IMG/VR virus record: IMGVR_UViG_3300046787_000141
Location: 1-42,736 of that record
DNA: 42,736 bases
From: a virus
Reading direction: 5' to 3' (one strand)
Shown here one piece after another: positions 16,085 through 27,750 of the stretch (the first letter of the stretch is position 1; the number at the start of each line of letters is the position of its first letter). The notes beneath the pieces were generated by a model. That model was not told the DNA's origin and did not search any database. It was given only the letters and a program-made list of their open reading frames with translations. The position numbers and the translations under genes are program-made.

Positions 16085-17119
16085 ATGCCTAAATTTGGCA
16101 AATTAATCGAACAGATGAGAGAAGAAATAGAAGAAAAATTTGAAGCAATTCGCAATCATTACTATTCCTCACAACTACCGTTAAAATCATTTTACAAAGA
16201 ATTTCATACGACTTACGGCTATGCATTACCAAAGGGATTAAAAGATGCTATGATTCGTAATAATATTACGATGAAAGCTCGCACTGAATTTTTAATGAAT
16301 AATAAAGTGCCTAAAAAGGTTCAAATTAAAGAATTTGATATTTCCGAGGTTACAGATTTTGGAATACAGAAATCAATAGGTCAAGAATATCTTTCAGCTA
16401 AATTACCAGACCATTTAAAAAAGATTGGTGTATTATCTGATATTCATTTCCCTTTTCATTCGATGGATGCTTTGCTTTGTGCAATTAAGTATTTAAGAGA
16501 GGAACGTATTGACTGCCTGTATCTAAACGGAGACATATTTGACTTTTATTCAATTTCACGTCACGAAAAGGACAAGGATTTAAGAGATTTAGCAAGGGAA
16601 GTAGATATGTGCAGGGATTTTGTACATAAGTTAAGAGAGATTTTTTCAGATATACCTATTTATTACAAATTAGGAAATCACGAGGACCGTTATGCACGTA
16701 GTTTACAAGTACAAGCTGAGGAGTTTAGCCAATTACACGACCTGCAATTCGATGTTTTCTTCCACCTTGACAGACTTAAATTTGAAGTCATTGACAGTTG
16801 GCGTGGAATGGAAATGGGTAATTTATTGGTACTGCACGGACATGAATTGTATGGAGGTGGAGGTGTAAACCCAAGTCAAAACTTATTTCAAAAGGTATTG
16901 TGCAATACACTTATCGGACACGTTCATAGGACGTCATCTACGACACGAAAGACAGGTTTTAAGGAATATATCCATACCTATTCAACAGGATGCCTTACGG
17001 CCCTATCACCGAAGTATATGCCATTCAGTCAACATAATCACGGATTTGCTTTGGTTGAAATAGAGAATGGAAAAAGTAAAGTGAAGAACATTGTCATAAA
17101 AGACGGAAAAATTATATAG
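16085..17119 (+). CDS. Calcineurin-like metallophosphoesterase
   Basis: The 344-residue protein carries the full metallophosphoesterase motif set: SDIHF (Asp119, His121), NGDIFD (Asp150), GNHED (Asn198, His199), LHGHE (His251) and GHVH (His279, His281). These bind two metal ions and hydrolyse phosphomono- or diesters. A ~110-residue N-terminal extension has helical character (LIEQMREEIEEKFEAIRNHY) and no recognised domain. It stands alone between the tail and early regions, flanked by hairpins. The substrate is unknown; DNA-end processing, nucleotide turnover or counter-defence against nucleotide signals are possibilities that the sequence cannot separate. Confidence 0.85.
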   Translation: MPKFGKLIEQMREEIEEKFEAIRNHYYSSQLPLKSFYKEFHTTYGYALPKGLKDAMIRNNITMKARTEFLMNNKVPKKVQIKEFDISEVTDFGIQKSIGQEYLSAKLPDHLKKIGVLSDIHFPFHSMDALLCAIKYLREERIDCLYLNGDIFDFYSISRHEKDKDLRDLAREVDMCRDFVHKLREIFSDIPIYYKLGNHEDRYARSLQVQAEEFSQLHDLQFDVFFHLDRLKFEVIDSWRGMEMGNLLVLHGHELYGGGGVNPSQNLFQKVLCNTLIGHVHRTSSTTRKTGFKEYIHTYSTGCLTALSPKYMPFSQHNHGFALVEIENGKSKVKNIVIKDGKII

Positions 17120-17124
17120 CTTTG
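17117..17124 (+). promoter_or_regulatory. TAGCTTTG -7 box of candidate small RNA
   Basis: A perfect TAnnTTTG box overlaps the phosphoesterase stop codon. No gene begins before a strong terminator at 17164-17200, so a transcript starting near 17129 would be a short non-coding RNA. Confidence 0.5.
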
Positions 17125-17128
17125 TAAC

Positions 17129-17200
17129 GAAATATTGAGAGTACAAAGTTTTGTTGTTGTGCCAATAGACCGGTGATTTATGTTGCCGGTTTATTTTTTT
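17129..17200 (+). ncRNA. Candidate antisense-type small RNA with GTTTTGTTG loop
   Basis: The stretch between the TAGCTTTG box and the terminator would give an RNA of about 70 bases. GTACAA (17141-17146) can pair with TTGTGC (17157-17162), holding AGTTTTGTTG in a 10-base loop. GTTTTGTTGTTGT (17148-17160) is perfectly complementary to ACAACAACAAAAC at 17546-17558 (13 bases) and to AACAACAAAAC at 17272-17282 and 22256-22266 (11 bases), all in leaders just before early genes. A 10-base match also covers the first codons of the ERF gene. The layout (promoter, seed in loop, terminator) is that of a trans-acting regulatory RNA. The alternative is a 3' untranslated region with a low-complexity chance match. 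Confidence 0.45.
17164..17200 (+). terminator. Intrinsic terminator
   Basis: AATAGACCGG (17164-17173) pairs with CCGGTTTATT (17186-17195) with one G-T pair, around a 12-base loop, followed by an unbroken T-run to 17200. It is a strong intrinsic terminator at the end of the phosphoesterase transcript and of the candidate small RNA. Confidence 0.85.
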
Positions 17201-17254: not shown

Positions 17255-17262
17255 GATATTTG
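17255..17262 (+). promoter_or_regulatory. GATATTTG -7-like box, early promoter 1
   Basis: This is one base off TAnnTTTG and lies 30 bases before the ATG at 17292, downstream of the 32-bp repeat. The leader that follows contains AACAACAAAACAAC (17272-17285). It probably drives the early operon. Confidence 0.5.
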
Positions 17263-17291
17263 CAATACAATAACAACAAAACAACAAAAAA

Positions 17292-17477
17292 ATGGAAAAT
17301 TCAAACGCTCAATCTAATTTTTACAACATTATTTATTCATCTGGTAAGCCAAGTAAAATTTATATTATTGCATCTAATTTAAAAGAAGCACATGCTGAGG
17401 CTAAAAAAATTCAAAATCAAATTGGTTCAGCATACTACAAAGTAAAAAGATGTTATGACGGAGGAGTTAGAGGATAA
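17292..17477 (+). CDS. Hypothetical early protein, 61 aa
   Basis: The family is not recognised. The small protein starts MENSNAQSNFYNIIYSSGKP and has an Ala/Lys-rich helix (NLKEAHAEAKKIQNQIG) followed by a basic end (VKRCYDGGVRG), resembling compact beta-alpha proteins of early phage regions. It is the first gene behind the 32-bp-repeat promoter, so it is probably expressed very early, a position often held by host-takeover proteins. Its leader carries the AACAACAAAAC motif complementary to the candidate small RNA. A small stem follows its stop. Confidence 0.65.
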   Translation: MENSNAQSNFYNIIYSSGKPSKIYIIASNLKEAHAEAKKIQNQIGSAYYKVKRCYDGGVRG

Positions 17478-17519: not shown

Positions 17520-17543
17520 GACCGGAACAGACGGTCAATTTTT
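17520..17543 (+). terminator. Short hairpin with T-run
   Basis: GACCG (17520-17524) pairs with CGGTC (17532-17536), followed by AATTTTT. The stem is only five pairs, so termination is probably partial. It separates the first early gene from the next leader. Confidence 0.45.
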
Positions 17544-17567
17544 AAACAACAACAAAACAACACTATT

Positions 17568-17693
17568 ATGAAAAATTTCCTAAAAGAACTAAAAGAAGGA
17601 CATCAGGCAGACCCTACATTTGTTTGGCTTGCAATACCAACATTTATCTTGTTGGTTGCTATTTATGTTATTTCAATAAACTTAACTGCATAG
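17568..17693 (+). CDS. Small membrane protein, 41 aa
   Basis: The gene starts at the ATG after the AACAACAAAACAAC leader motif (17548-17561). The product has a charged N-terminus (KNFLKELKEGHQADP) and one membrane helix (about residues 18-38, starting VWLAIPTFILLVAIYVI). No family is recognised. It is followed two bases later by the next ATG, so the two are translated together. Small single-span proteins in early regions can act on the host envelope or in superinfection exclusion, but this is only a possibility here. Confidence 0.6.
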   Translation: MKNFLKELKEGHQADPTFVWLAIPTFILLVAIYVISINLTA

Positions 17694-18157: not shown

Positions 18158-18742
18158 ATGGCACAACAAAACACATTAGCAACAATTCAGGCCAAGGTCA
18201 AAGCACCAAAAGGTCAGTTCAATTCATTCGGTAAGTACAAGTACAGGTCAGCCGAGGACATCCTTGAATCAGTTAAATTAATTATCAATCCGTTAGGTTT
18301 TTCAATTGTCCTCTCAGACACGATAATTAACGTAGGCGATAGATTCTATATCAAAGCAACTGCAACGCTCACAGATGGCAAGGAAACGTACTCAGCAGAC
18401 GGGTATGCTCGTGAAGATGAAAGCAAAAAAGGTATGGATGGTTCACAGGTCACTGGGGCATCAAGCTCGTATGCTAGAAAGTATGCGCTTAACGGTCTGT
18501 TTGCATTAGATGATACAAAAGATGCAGATGCTACAAATACCCACGGAAAAGAAGTTCAAGCATATCAACCGAAGCAAGAAGTAGCAACCGAGCCATCAGT
18601 TTTATCGGCTTGGCAAGTAGCAGTTAAGAAATGTAACACCGGTGCTGAATTAATGTCCTTGTATAGTTCAAACAAAGAGTTAATTGATTCAGATATCAAT
18701 ATCAAGTCGTTATTCACAACTCGTAAATTAGAAATTGACTAA
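18158..18742 (+). CDS. erf: ERF-family single-strand annealing protein
   Basis: The 194-residue protein matches the ERF family: FGKYKYRSAEDILESVK in the N-terminal part, YIKATATLTDGKE, and the conserved GASSSYARKYALNGLFALDD segment. ERF proteins form rings that anneal complementary DNA strands for phage recombination and end joining, as in P22. The C-terminus (QPKQEVATEPSVLSAWQ) is a linker plus a small helical part. It is followed directly by an exonuclease and an SSB-like gene, a standard recombination cassette. The first codons (ACAACAAAAC, 18163-18172) are complementary to the candidate small RNA. Confidence 0.88.
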   Translation: MAQQNTLATIQAKVKAPKGQFNSFGKYKYRSAEDILESVKLIINPLGFSIVLSDTIINVGDRFYIKATATLTDGKETYSADGYAREDESKKGMDGSQVTGASSSYARKYALNGLFALDDTKDADATNTHGKEVQAYQPKQEVATEPSVLSAWQVAVKKCNTGAELMSLYSSNKELIDSDINIKSLFTTRKLEID

Positions 18743-22247: not shown

Positions 22248-22275
22248 GTACATCAAACAACAAAACAATATCAAA

Positions 22276-22515
22276 ATGGAAATGCAATCTATCAATTTAA
22301 CAAAAACAGCCGGTATTATGCTTAAAGGTGAAGCAATTATATCTGGAGTAAATGTGTTTTTTTATTACAATCCTATTAAGGACAGATTTACCGCAATTTC
22401 TTTTAATATTTATCAAGCATACAATGTTTTTCCTTATGTTAATCGTGATGTTCCACAAGAATATTTAGTTGGCTCATTCATTTCTAAATATATTAAGTCA
22501 AACAATTTAATCTAA
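22276..22515 (+). CDS. Hypothetical early protein, 79 aa
   Basis: This is the first gene behind the second 32-bp-repeat promoter. The frame is open further upstream but the ATG at 22276, after the CAA-rich leader, is preferred (MEMQSINLTKTAGIMLKGEA). The sequence is aromatic-rich and beta-like (GVNVFFYYNPIKDRFTAISF). No family is recognised. Its promoter and leader match those of the gene at 17292, suggesting co-regulation. Confidence 0.62.
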   Translation: MEMQSINLTKTAGIMLKGEAIISGVNVFFYYNPIKDRFTAISFNIYQAYNVFPYVNRDVPQEYLVGSFISKYIKSNNLI

Positions 22516-23816: not shown

Positions 23817-24030
23817 GTATAAATACATAGGAAATGATAACTATTTTATTAAAAATGGAGATGTAATTAATGCAGAGCCTACTACTTGGTCTATACAAAA
23901 TGTGAATAGTAAAGATAGGGATACTGTAAAAGTTATATACTTTAAAAATGTAGGCTTTGATGGAAAAGATGTTCCAATTAATTTAGAAAGTTTTATAGAA
24001 ATAGTTAAACAACAAAATAATGGAAACTAA
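23809..24030 (+). CDS. Hypothetical protein, 73 aa
   Basis: The sequence (MGKYKYIGNDNYFIKNGDVI, then STKDRDTVKVIYF-like strands) suggests a small SH3-like or beta-barrel fold: the opening KYKYIGN...KNGDVI resembles short SH3-type domains in phage early genes. There are no catalytic motifs. It overlaps both neighbours. Confidence 0.58.
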   Translation: MGKYKYIGNDNYFIKNGDVINAEPTTWSIQNVNSKDRDTVKVIYFKNVGFDGKDVPINLESFIEIVKQQNNGN

Positions 24031-26340: not shown

Positions 26341-26447
26341 AATCTGAAGAAAGATTGATTTTTGAAGCTATTTTAATCGGTATGGTTGAAATAGCTTTTA
26401 TCATTTATATGACAATTAAAATTTTAAAACAAAGAAATAACCAATGA
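26337..26447 (+). CDS. Tiny membrane protein, 36 aa
   Basis: Starting at an ATG overlapping the previous stop, it encodes a charged start (MKSEERLIFE), one membrane helix (AILIGMVEIAFIIYMTIKIL) and a basic end (KQRNNQ). The stop overlaps the ParB-like gene start. No family is recognised. Confidence 0.5.
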   Translation: MKSEERLIFEAILIGMVEIAFIIYMTIKILKQRNNQ

Positions 26448-27016
26448 ATGCTGAATTAATTAAAATCGGTGAAATTAAATCTAATCCTAACAACCCAAGG
26501 ATTATCAAGGATGATAAATTTAAAAAACTTGTAAATTCAATTAAGGAGTTTCCAAAGATGCTTGAATTGCGTCCAATAGTTGTTAACGATGATATGGTTG
26601 TGCTTGGTGGCAATATGCGATTAAAAGCATGCAAAGAAGCAGGATTAAAAGAAGTGCCGGTCATCAAAGCATCTGATTTAACTGATGATGAGCAGAAGCA
26701 ATTTATTATTAAAGACAATGTAGGATTTGGGGAGTGGGATTGGGATATGCTTGCAAACGAGTGGGAAATTGAAGATTTAACCGAGTGGGGATTGGACCTA
26801 TGGAATAAGGGACTTGACGTAAACGAAATGAACGAAAGTGACATTGATTTACAGCAAGAGTTTGACCCAATTGGTTTATCAGCAGGATTGCAACGTGTTG
26901 TATTTATTTTTGATGGGCCGGAAGAAGCTGAAAGCTGGTTGAATCAACATCCCGAGTTACCACTTAAAAAAATGAATAACGCATGGCAAATCGACCTATC
27001 TACCCAATCTATATAA
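26444..27016 (+). CDS. ParB N-terminal-domain-like protein
   Basis: The 190-residue protein opens with the ParB/Srx fold pattern: IKIGEIKSNPNNPRIIKDDK, FKKLVNSIKEFP, RPIVVNDDMVVLGGNMRLKA, VIKASDLTDDEQKQFIIKDN. GGNMRLKA takes the place of the GERR-type loop that binds CTP in chromosomal ParB. The C-terminal part (LSAGLQRVVFIFDGPEEAES) is a short extra domain. In phages such proteins are often linked to DNA modification enzymes or terminases. Here it overlaps a glycosyltransferase-like gene by 34 bases and precedes the terminase, so a role in modification or packaging is inferred. No partition system is present. Confidence 0.8.
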   Translation: MNAELIKIGEIKSNPNNPRIIKDDKFKKLVNSIKEFPKMLELRPIVVNDDMVVLGGNMRLKACKEAGLKEVPVIKASDLTDDEQKQFIIKDNVGFGEWDWDMLANEWEIEDLTEWGLDLWNKGLDVNEMNESDIDLQQEFDPIGLSAGLQRVVFIFDGPEEAESWLNQHPELPLKKMNNAWQIDLSTQSI

Positions 27017-27750
27017 TCTCAAAAGGCAGGTATGAAAAAACTTTATCTGCTGACATTTTTGAGAAGGCAGGATTGGATTATTATGTAGCTGTTGAGCCAC
27101 AAGAATATGACCTATATGTTAAGAAACTTGGCGAAAAGAGAATATTAAAATTGCCATTTAAAAATTTGGGATTAGGTAGCTATCCGGCAAGGAATTTCTG
27201 TTGGGAGCATAGTAAAAGTCTTGGATGCAAATATCATTGGTTGTTCGATGATAATATTCAATATTTTTCTAAGTGGATTAACGGAAAGCGTAGAAGAATT
27301 GACACGATAGGTGATGCACTAATTTATGTTGAGCAATTTGTTATAAAAAATAAAATAACAATAGGTGGGTTTGAAGAGCCTAATTTTGTTGTTAAACCAC
27401 CTAAAAAAGCATTTAAAATTAATTGCCACGTTTACTCGGCAATGCTAATTAAAAATGATATACCTTTCAGGTGGCGACTTAAATACAATGAAGATGTAGA
27501 TTTGTGTTTGCAAGTTTTACATAACGGAGGCAGTACAGCAAGCTGTATTTATTATATGGCCGATAAAGTAAGTACGGCAGCTAAAATGAAAGGTGGCAAT
27601 CAGACTGAACTTTACAAAGGGAATGCACCGGAAAAAAATCTATTAAAAGCAAAGATGCTCGAAGCTGTTTGGCCACAATATGCTAAAACAGTCATTAGAT
27701 TTAATCGCCATCATCATTTAGTAGATTGGAAAGTATTTAAAAGAAAGTAA
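26983..27750 (+). CDS. TET-associated-glycosyltransferase-like protein (GREB1-related)
   Basis: The 255-residue protein has the pattern of the TET-associated glycosyltransferase (TAGT) / GREB1-related family: PIYIISKGRYEKTLSADIFE, AVEPQEYDLYVKKL, GSYPARNFCWEHSKSLG, then WLFDDNIQYF with the acidic Asp89-Asp90 metal/nucleotide-sugar motif, and YNEDVDLCLQ (Glu170, Asp171) as likely catalytic acidics. Members are predicted to add sugars to hydroxymethylated DNA bases in phages. No TET/JBP dioxygenase or hydroxymethylase gene was found, so the base to be modified would have to come from another source or the target differs. It lies between the ParB-like and terminase genes. Confidence 0.7.
   Translation: MANRPIYPIYIISKGRYEKTLSADIFEKAGLDYYVAVEPQEYDLYVKKLGEKRILKLPFKNLGLGSYPARNFCWEHSKSLGCKYHWLFDDNIQYFSKWINGKRRRIDTIGDALIYVEQFVIKNKITIGGFEEPNFVVKPPKKAFKINCHVYSAMLIKNDIPFRWRLKYNEDVDLCLQVLHNGGSTASCIYYMADKVSTAAKMKGGNQTELYKGNAPEKNLLKAKMLEAVWPQYAKTVIRFNRHHHLVDWKVFKRK

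Follow-up and report, generated by a model that had tools for sequence, protein, structure and literature searches.

At 17129-17200, the window (a virus record from IMG/VR, 42,736 bases long) most likely encodes an independently transcribed antisense-type small RNA (sRNA) that represses the gene of a small membrane protein and the exchangeable cassette genes carrying the same leader (probability about 0.7). The identification is a computational case, made from sequence alone. Transcription of the sRNA would begin at a host-type promoter where a phosphoesterase gene ends, just upstream of the early operon and on the same strand, and would stop at its own terminator. The stretch before the terminator would pair with the translation start region of the membrane-protein gene and of the same-leader cassettes, over about -25 to +7 in many relatives and -22 to -10 in the window. 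Formed on an unstructured, A-rich leader that lacks a Shine-Dalgarno sequence, such a duplex should block initiation (30S binding), much as with a type I antitoxin or the phage P22 sas RNA. A preliminary description had proposed an sRNA that pairs near the starts of several early genes. The core of that interpretation is upheld: early-gene starts do appear to be the targets, while the set has been modified, as it centres on the membrane-protein gene at 17568 and the cassettes, with a weaker site in erf. The suggested role at the early-to-late transition gained no support either way.

Table 1. Coordinates of the features of the sRNA locus and of its candidate target sites in the window.
Feature	Position	Strand	Remark
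Calcineurin-like metallophosphoesterase (MPE) gene	16085-17119	+	directly upstream of the sRNA locus
-7 promoter box TAnnTTTG, TAGCTTTG	17117-17124	+	Bacteroidetes-type match
Predicted sRNA, ~72 nt, without ORF	17129-17200	+	start from box spacing; end from terminator
Pairing stretch (seed), GUUUUGUUGUUGU / GTTTTGTTGTTGT	17148-17160	+	sequence check
Intrinsic terminator of the sRNA	17164-17200 (17164-17195 plus T run)	+	terminator prediction, fold
Early promoter -7 box, GATATTTG	17255-17262	+	sequence; one mismatch to TAnnTTTG
Target site 1, cassette-gene leader, -20 to -10 from ATG	17272-17282	+	11 nt complementary
Cassette gene, 61 aa	17292-17477	+	unrelated ORFs replace it in relatives
Hairpin between cassette and membrane-protein gene	17520-17536	+	structure prediction
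Target site 2, membrane-protein leader, -22 to -10	17546-17558	+	13 nt complementary
Small single-membrane-span protein, 41 aa, proposed main target	17568-17693	+	counterpart in 62/70 relatives
Possible target site, first codons of erf	18163-18172	+	10 nt, ACAACAAAAC
Possible target site, -20 to -10 from ATG 22276 (79 aa ORF)	22256-22266	+	11 nt
Possible target site just before ATG 24020	24008-24017	+	10 nt, AACAACAAAA

The predicted sRNA gene and its setting in the window

The window carries genes for tape measure, portal, terminase, Erf, exonuclease and replication-initiation proteins, all of them on the plus strand, and the sRNA locus is found between the MPE gene and the early region. The TAG of the sRNA promoter box is also the stop codon of the phosphoesterase ORF. 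In Flavobacterium, the TAnnTTTG box sits at -12 to -5 (PMC9723704), and this spacing gives the predicted +1 of the sRNA. The early promoter has its own box, which relatives carry at the same place as TATGTTTG/TAGGTTTA. A sigma-70 promoter scan is uninformative for Bacteroidetes-type hosts; those of this phage group are probably Flavobacteriia-like.

The positions given in the preliminary description for the box, the stem arms, the seed and the five complementary sites were all found to be correct, as was its account of 17117-17200 as a box, no gene and a strong terminator, the +1 at 17129 agreeing with the Flavobacterium spacing. Its 6-bp stem fared less well. The arms are present (GTACAA at 17141-17146, TTGTGC at 17157-17162) and fold as described, but by itself the stem does not reach significance (z = -0.87); in L002, the closest relative, a G-G mismatch disrupts it, and it is unconserved. 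The fold of the whole RNA has a z of -4.1, which is owed nearly entirely to the terminator. Folding predictions suggest a fairly exposed seed: its mean unpaired probability in the folded RNAs was 0.60, against 0.15 for the terminator, with 0.34 in the window (for an RNA starting directly after the box) and 0.63 in L002. On the plus strand of the 42.7 kb, GTTGTTGT occurs once, at the sRNA locus.

No close DNA relative was found among annotated phage records, where the small membrane protein had no match and the phosphoesterase reached only 38%, in Chryseobacterium phages. Bacterial and archaeal genomes did not yield a close relative, and IMG/VR did not yield a match to the exact terminator sequence. 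A search of Rfam (4,227 families) gave no gathering match in the window, and a permissive Rfam search of eight loci gave a match at chance level only. Elsewhere in the window, at 26444-27747, a gene for a ParB/methyltransferase-like protein is followed by a match to the PHROG family beta-glucosyl-HMC-alpha-glucosyltransferase, a gene pair hinting that the DNA of this phage may be modified and glucosylated.

The window has five sites that can pair with 17129-17163 over 10 nt or more, and all are start-proximal (-30 to +15 of the start codon), a zone that makes up about 7% of the window. The reverse complement of the seed GTTTTGTTGTTGT, ACAACAACAAAAC, is matched exactly in the membrane-protein leader, while AACAACAAAAC is present both in the cassette leader and upstream of the ATG at 22276. 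The latter start, left out by the automatic gene caller, was entered manually; otherwise, four of the five sites would be counted. Among all the gene starts that were scored in the window, the one with target site 2 gives the best duplex (-17.6 kcal/mol); the cassette start at 17292, where target site 1 forms a duplex of -15.7 kcal/mol, ranks third. For the shuffled-sequence control called for in the preliminary description, the RNA was given 2,000 dinucleotide shuffles, of which 11 reached five start-proximal sites. When every 35-nt stretch of the plus strand was scanned, five sites were reached only by the sRNA and by 1797-1812; the surrounding 1797-1846 resembles coding sequence with an anti-start-like stretch. 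As evidence, the complementarity within the window is moderate, that is, suggestive and not conclusive. Comparison across related sequences gives much stronger evidence.

Conservation of the unit and co-variation of its pairing sequences

Relatives were gathered via MPE and Erf, and the interval after MPE was read in each. Seventy relatives were parsed, in which the product of the upstream gene is mostly 57-88% identical. A recurring order was found: a TAnnTTTG-like box closes MPE, a terminator follows after about 25-60 nt, and next come an AT-rich early promoter and a leader, often one or two cassette ORFs, a membrane-span ORF, small ORFs and erf. The unit from the sRNA through the small membrane-protein gene is present in 62 loci. 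The TAnnTTTG box is perfect in 57 of the 70 parsed relatives and imperfect in L002 (TAATTTCG), the nearest relative, and in L003. A terminator is present in 70 of the 72 relatives considered, with a stem sequence that varies between clades. The -33 promoter element is not conserved among the relatives; this element is also weak in F. johnsoniae (PMC6847099).

Such a conserved stretch might be read as the 3' UTR of the phosphoesterase mRNA with its terminator, the sRNA being a processed 3' fragment, which could itself act as a regulator, or nonexistent. The overlap of the box with the stop codon, the imperfect boxes of L002 and L003 and the unconserved -33 element would fit this reading, yet it is quite improbable given how the box behaves. 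When the MPE stop lies a few codons further on, the box shifts together with the RNA (L021, L027 and L029: TAAGTTTG, TACATTTG and TAAATTTG). An HNH-type gene is inserted after MPE in six loci, and in the three that were read to the end, the last codon and stop of the HNH gene (TTGTAGGTTTG) rebuild the box, with the sRNA intact behind it. Two distinct phosphoesterase families precede the sRNA in different phages (window 16085-17119; L026 3051-4217). Because the box is moved or rebuilt, and because a second phosphoesterase family can stand upstream, the conservation of the box and the RNA is not a by-product of MPE coding. Moreover, co-variation with the leaders of the next operon would not be expected of a plain 3' end. 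The discrete sRNA gene put forward in the preliminary description gains support, as the box and terminator are conserved despite changes in the neighbouring genes and in the sequence of the terminator. The insertions between the phosphoesterase and the sRNA are HNH/NUMOD homing endonuclease-like (L010, L123 and L128; also L011, L108 and L109), and similar ones lie behind the second phosphoesterase (L035, L175 and L178-L180).

The stretch just 5' of the terminator varies by clade, and the leaders vary alongside it. Pairs of seed and leader that change together include GUUGUUGU/ACAACAAC, AGGUUUAAG/CUUAAACCU and UUUAGAUGAUUAU/AUAAUCAUCUAAA, and about ten seed types with matching leaders were recognised. 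The window seed and its leader are identical in L002; GTTGTTG is retained in L003-L007, L041, L043, L047, L048, L050 and L053, and elsewhere other seeds are found with matching leaders. Examples are GTTGTTGTTT with AAACAACAAC (L004), AGGTTTAAG with CTTAAACCT (L013), TTTAGATGATTAT with ATAATCATCTAAA (L150) and AGTTTGGTTT with AAACCAAACT (L039), as well as TTGATAAGGTTTA with TAAACCTTATCAA (L031) and TTTTGTTAGGTTTA with TAAACCTAACAAAA (L044), where the leader stretch lies immediately 5' of the ATG. In L091, the seed TATGTGTTTAATTGGTTTA pairs along almost its whole length with the start of the membrane gene, and a shifted register pairs it with the cassette leader. Perfect matches of 13-14 nt that end at or just before the AUG occur in L031, L044 and L150. 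A perfect seed had been predicted for L036/L037 (GATAGGTGTTT); it was absent there, and only an imperfect match was found. The preliminary description had named relatives that keep the leaders and lose the complementary loop as a finding that would speak against it. What was found is that a change in the leader brings a matching change in the RNA.

The sRNA of many lineages contains TTTTCAT, which can pair with ATGAAAA and would extend the duplex over about -25 to +7 in these phages. Start-region duplexes were calculated at -19.6 (L029), -20.5 (L031), -23.6 (L141), -21.4 (L144) and -19.8 kcal/mol (L150). The AUG is covered by the duplex in L031, L089, L139, L141, L144 and L150, whereas the window duplex stops 10 nt short of it. 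It is solely this position that suggests repression rather than activation. A real RNA that pairs with the leaders could instead activate or stabilise the early mRNAs, or the leaders could act as sponges for an sRNA with other (host) targets. Several modes of action are possible for sRNAs, and the window duplex, ending before the AUG, would be compatible with these; they are nevertheless unlikely, in that coverage of the AUG in most other lineages fits a block and the co-variation is tightest with the neighbouring early genes. Repression of translation is also favoured by what is known of initiation in these hosts, since Flavobacterium johnsoniae initiates without a Shine-Dalgarno sequence, and initiation is tuned by structure in the start region and by an A-rich context, with nucleotides such as A at -3 (PMC6847099).

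The co-variation was evaluated by a permutation test in which each sRNA was scored against the start of its own membrane gene (-30 to +10) and the starts were then shuffled among representatives. Representatives were chosen greedily, because single-linkage clustering merged nearly all loci. For 12 representatives below 80% MPE identity, own pairs averaged -14.9 kcal/mol against -11.9 kcal/mol for exchanged pairs (sd 0.72), a difference reached in 0 of 20,000 permutations (2 of 20,000 when repeated with another random seed). The corresponding values for 27 representatives below 90% identity were -15.3 and -11.7 kcal/mol (sd 0.51; 0/20,000), and for eight representatives below 75% identity, the count was 27 of 20,000. 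Pairwise swaps gave the better score to the own pair in 56 of 66 cases for the membrane gene and in 58 of 66 for the first gene. Several loci (L048, L122 and L136) pair weakly when compared with shuffled leaders.

It could be argued that a U/G-rich RNA will match the CAA-rich, A-rich leaders typical of this group by chance. The window motif is indeed of low complexity, and even exchanged pairs reach about -11.9 kcal/mol. Such compositional bias is common to own and exchanged pairs and so cannot explain the advantage of own pairs; permutation among equally biased sequences still separates them, and seeds in other lineages, such as UUUAGAUGAUUAU, are non-repetitive. Coincidence is therefore scarcely credible as an explanation. 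The caution about low complexity raised in the preliminary description was fair for the window alone; it does not hold for the family, since the pairing sequences of other lineages are quite unlike it.

The complementarity might also act at the level of DNA, as inverted repeats belonging either to a promoter that can be inverted or to a pair of operators bound by a regulatory protein. Seed and leader are indeed inverted repeats that flank the early promoter. This arrangement is very unlikely to be the explanation: the orientation of terminator and promoter is constant in 70 of the 70 parsed loci, with the sRNA upstream on the same strand and a flipped segment in none; several phages have two to four leaders that fit a single seed; and the matches end at start codons, not at promoters, with seeds that are non-palindromic.

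A tree of MPE from 59 loci requires ten changes of sRNA seed type. The GTTGTTG type requires two origins on this tree, since strongly supported branches place the window and L002 next to L039/L089 and apart from the other GTTGTTG phages. The leaders match at both origins, and the sisters of the window, L039/L089, carry GTTTGGTTT with the leader AAACCAAAC. The window seed type thus appears to have arisen apart from the larger clade that shares the seed. The sRNA type equals the leader type exactly in 45 of the 59 loci, most of the others being variants of TAAACC; as the types were set by eye post hoc, the permutation test is the better evidence.

Probable targets, the membrane protein and the cassette slot

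The complementarity to several early-gene starts noted in the preliminary description is borne out by both sides co-varying across lineages. Mean duplex energies were -14.8 kcal/mol for membrane-gene starts and -13.8 kcal/mol for cassette starts, against -10.6 kcal/mol for 1,092 other starts of the same loci. The membrane gene is the best-paired start in 17 of 62 loci (3.9 expected), and a cassette or the membrane gene is in 20. The neighbouring genes thus appear to be favoured as targets, with a noisy prediction at any single locus, and further targets elsewhere are likely from the sequences.

A hold-out set, largely unused in forming the idea, was found via the second phosphoesterase family. 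It comprises 23 loci with sRNA and membrane gene, whose own duplexes average -15.9 kcal/mol, against -13.0 kcal/mol for hold-out sRNAs with main-set leaders. The hold-out seeds are nearly all GATAGGTTTA-like, and because of this uniformity own and exchanged pairs were indistinguishable within the set (1,643 of 20,000 at 95% identity). The architecture is replicated in the hold-out set; the co-variation is without independent replication there.

The membrane protein of the relatives has 36-46 aa and one hydrophobic span, and no PHROG or Pfam family was found for it. Between the early promoter and its gene lies the cassette slot, with 0-2 ORFs (about 50-100 aa each). Almost every relative has a different first early ORF, while the leader and the following gene are conserved (window 17292-17477; L002-L007, L009, L013, L014, L016, L115 and others). 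Cassette genes tested against Pfam gave sub-threshold hits only, and no similarity between cassette and membrane protein was found. A natural guess is that the cassettes are anti-defence genes.

The hairpin between the two genes of the window has counterparts at 33 sites in relatives, with a constant hexaloop CGGATT (once TGGATT) on at least ten distinct, perfectly paired stems. It closes each cassette, directly 5' of the next leader (for example, L101 7408, L107 2294, L089 6646, L115 5458 and 5700, and L036 before 5127). CGGATT is the commonest hexaloop with a perfect 6-bp stem across all loci; the hairpins are terminator-like in some loci and are without a T run in others.

Relation to known antisense systems and possible role

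By analogy, the phage sRNA would act most like the side-by-side type I pairs (IstR-1/TisB, OhsC/ShoB, OrzO/ZorO, AgrB/DinQ and TimR/TimP), although it is not filed as type I. These pairs likewise combine a small membrane protein with an adjacent, non-overlapping sRNA gene that has its own terminator and with an mRNA whose 5' region the sRNA can pair with over about 10-20 nt. In the case of TimR/TimP, a complementary site was found in each relative (PMC7667032), as for the phage sRNA. A type I toxin is a small hydrophobic or membrane protein below about 60 aa, and the 36-46 aa protein in 62 of 70 loci agrees with this; the RNA complementary to the toxin mRNA has its counterpart in the co-varying complementarity to the start region. 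The adjacent-divergent subtype (istR/tisB, timR/timP) is transcribed divergently, whereas the phage sRNA and protein genes stand in tandem on the same strand in all parsed loci, and the one orientation seen in 70 of 70 loci differs from the two of an invertible promoter (inverton). Moreover, timP is paired at a distant 5' UTR site and the phage sRNA would pair over the translation start, and, unlike type I pairs, the phage sRNA also matches neighbouring exchangeable genes and is associated with a phage early operon.

The nearest phage analogy is sas/sieB of P22. The sas RNA is read from the strand opposite sieB, whereas the phage sRNA lies upstream on the same strand and would pair in trans. 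It was reported that sas controls the translation of sieB, a phage exclusion protein (PMC12197685). By this analogy, exclusion is only one possibility for the role of the small membrane protein. The c4 RNA of P1/P7 and the sar RNA of P22 are further phage RNAs that regulate by base pairing. The same holds for lambda OOP, VP882 VpdS and PreS (PMC12197685). These differ from the phage sRNA in that OOP and sar are cis-antisense, c4 acts inside a single transcript, Hfq is the partner of VpdS and PreS and none comes from a Bacteroidetes phage; a 2025 review names none from such phages (PMC12197685). The sRNAs of Flavobacteriaceae and Bacteroides (Rfp18 and others) share the promoter box and the translation without a Shine-Dalgarno sequence; they are host-encoded, and Rfam gives no relation to the phage sRNA. 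Trans-acting sRNAs of phages with Bacteroidetes-type promoters were undescribed in the (mostly open-access) literature searched.

The repression by a phage of its own gene could possibly serve to limit a toxic or depolarising protein, to time exclusion or to balance the cassettes. More tentatively, and at less than even odds, the sRNA may represent a large undescribed family of phage antisense RNAs that act as a common brake on an exchange site, holding down a membrane-active small protein, type I toxin-like or for exclusion, together with every same-leader cassette, possibly of anti-defence function; the RNA and the leaders would repeatedly recode their pairing together, leaving a mutually compatible set in each lineage. 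If the cassettes are anti-defence genes, the sRNA would give an accessory-gene slot a common regulator that acts after transcription, a role comparable to that of the Aca repressors of anti-CRISPR operons. Comparative evidence of such depth is unusual for a phage sRNA. The seed-leader system would offer a clean test of antisense translational control without a Shine-Dalgarno sequence, and its diversified pairs could serve as orthogonal translational switches for Bacteroidetes.

A related group of phages is without the membrane gene at this place (L093, L094, L142, L217, L224, L241, L244 and others). These phages share a conserved sRNA-like unit, GCGTTTCATTTTGTGTTTGTTTTGTGGTTTGG followed by a terminator, that points towards a convergent gene. 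A gene for a 130 aa protein about 2 kb upstream begins with AAACAAACAATACAAAATGAAA, which is strongly complementary to the unit, at about -26 kcal/mol, making it a possible trans target.
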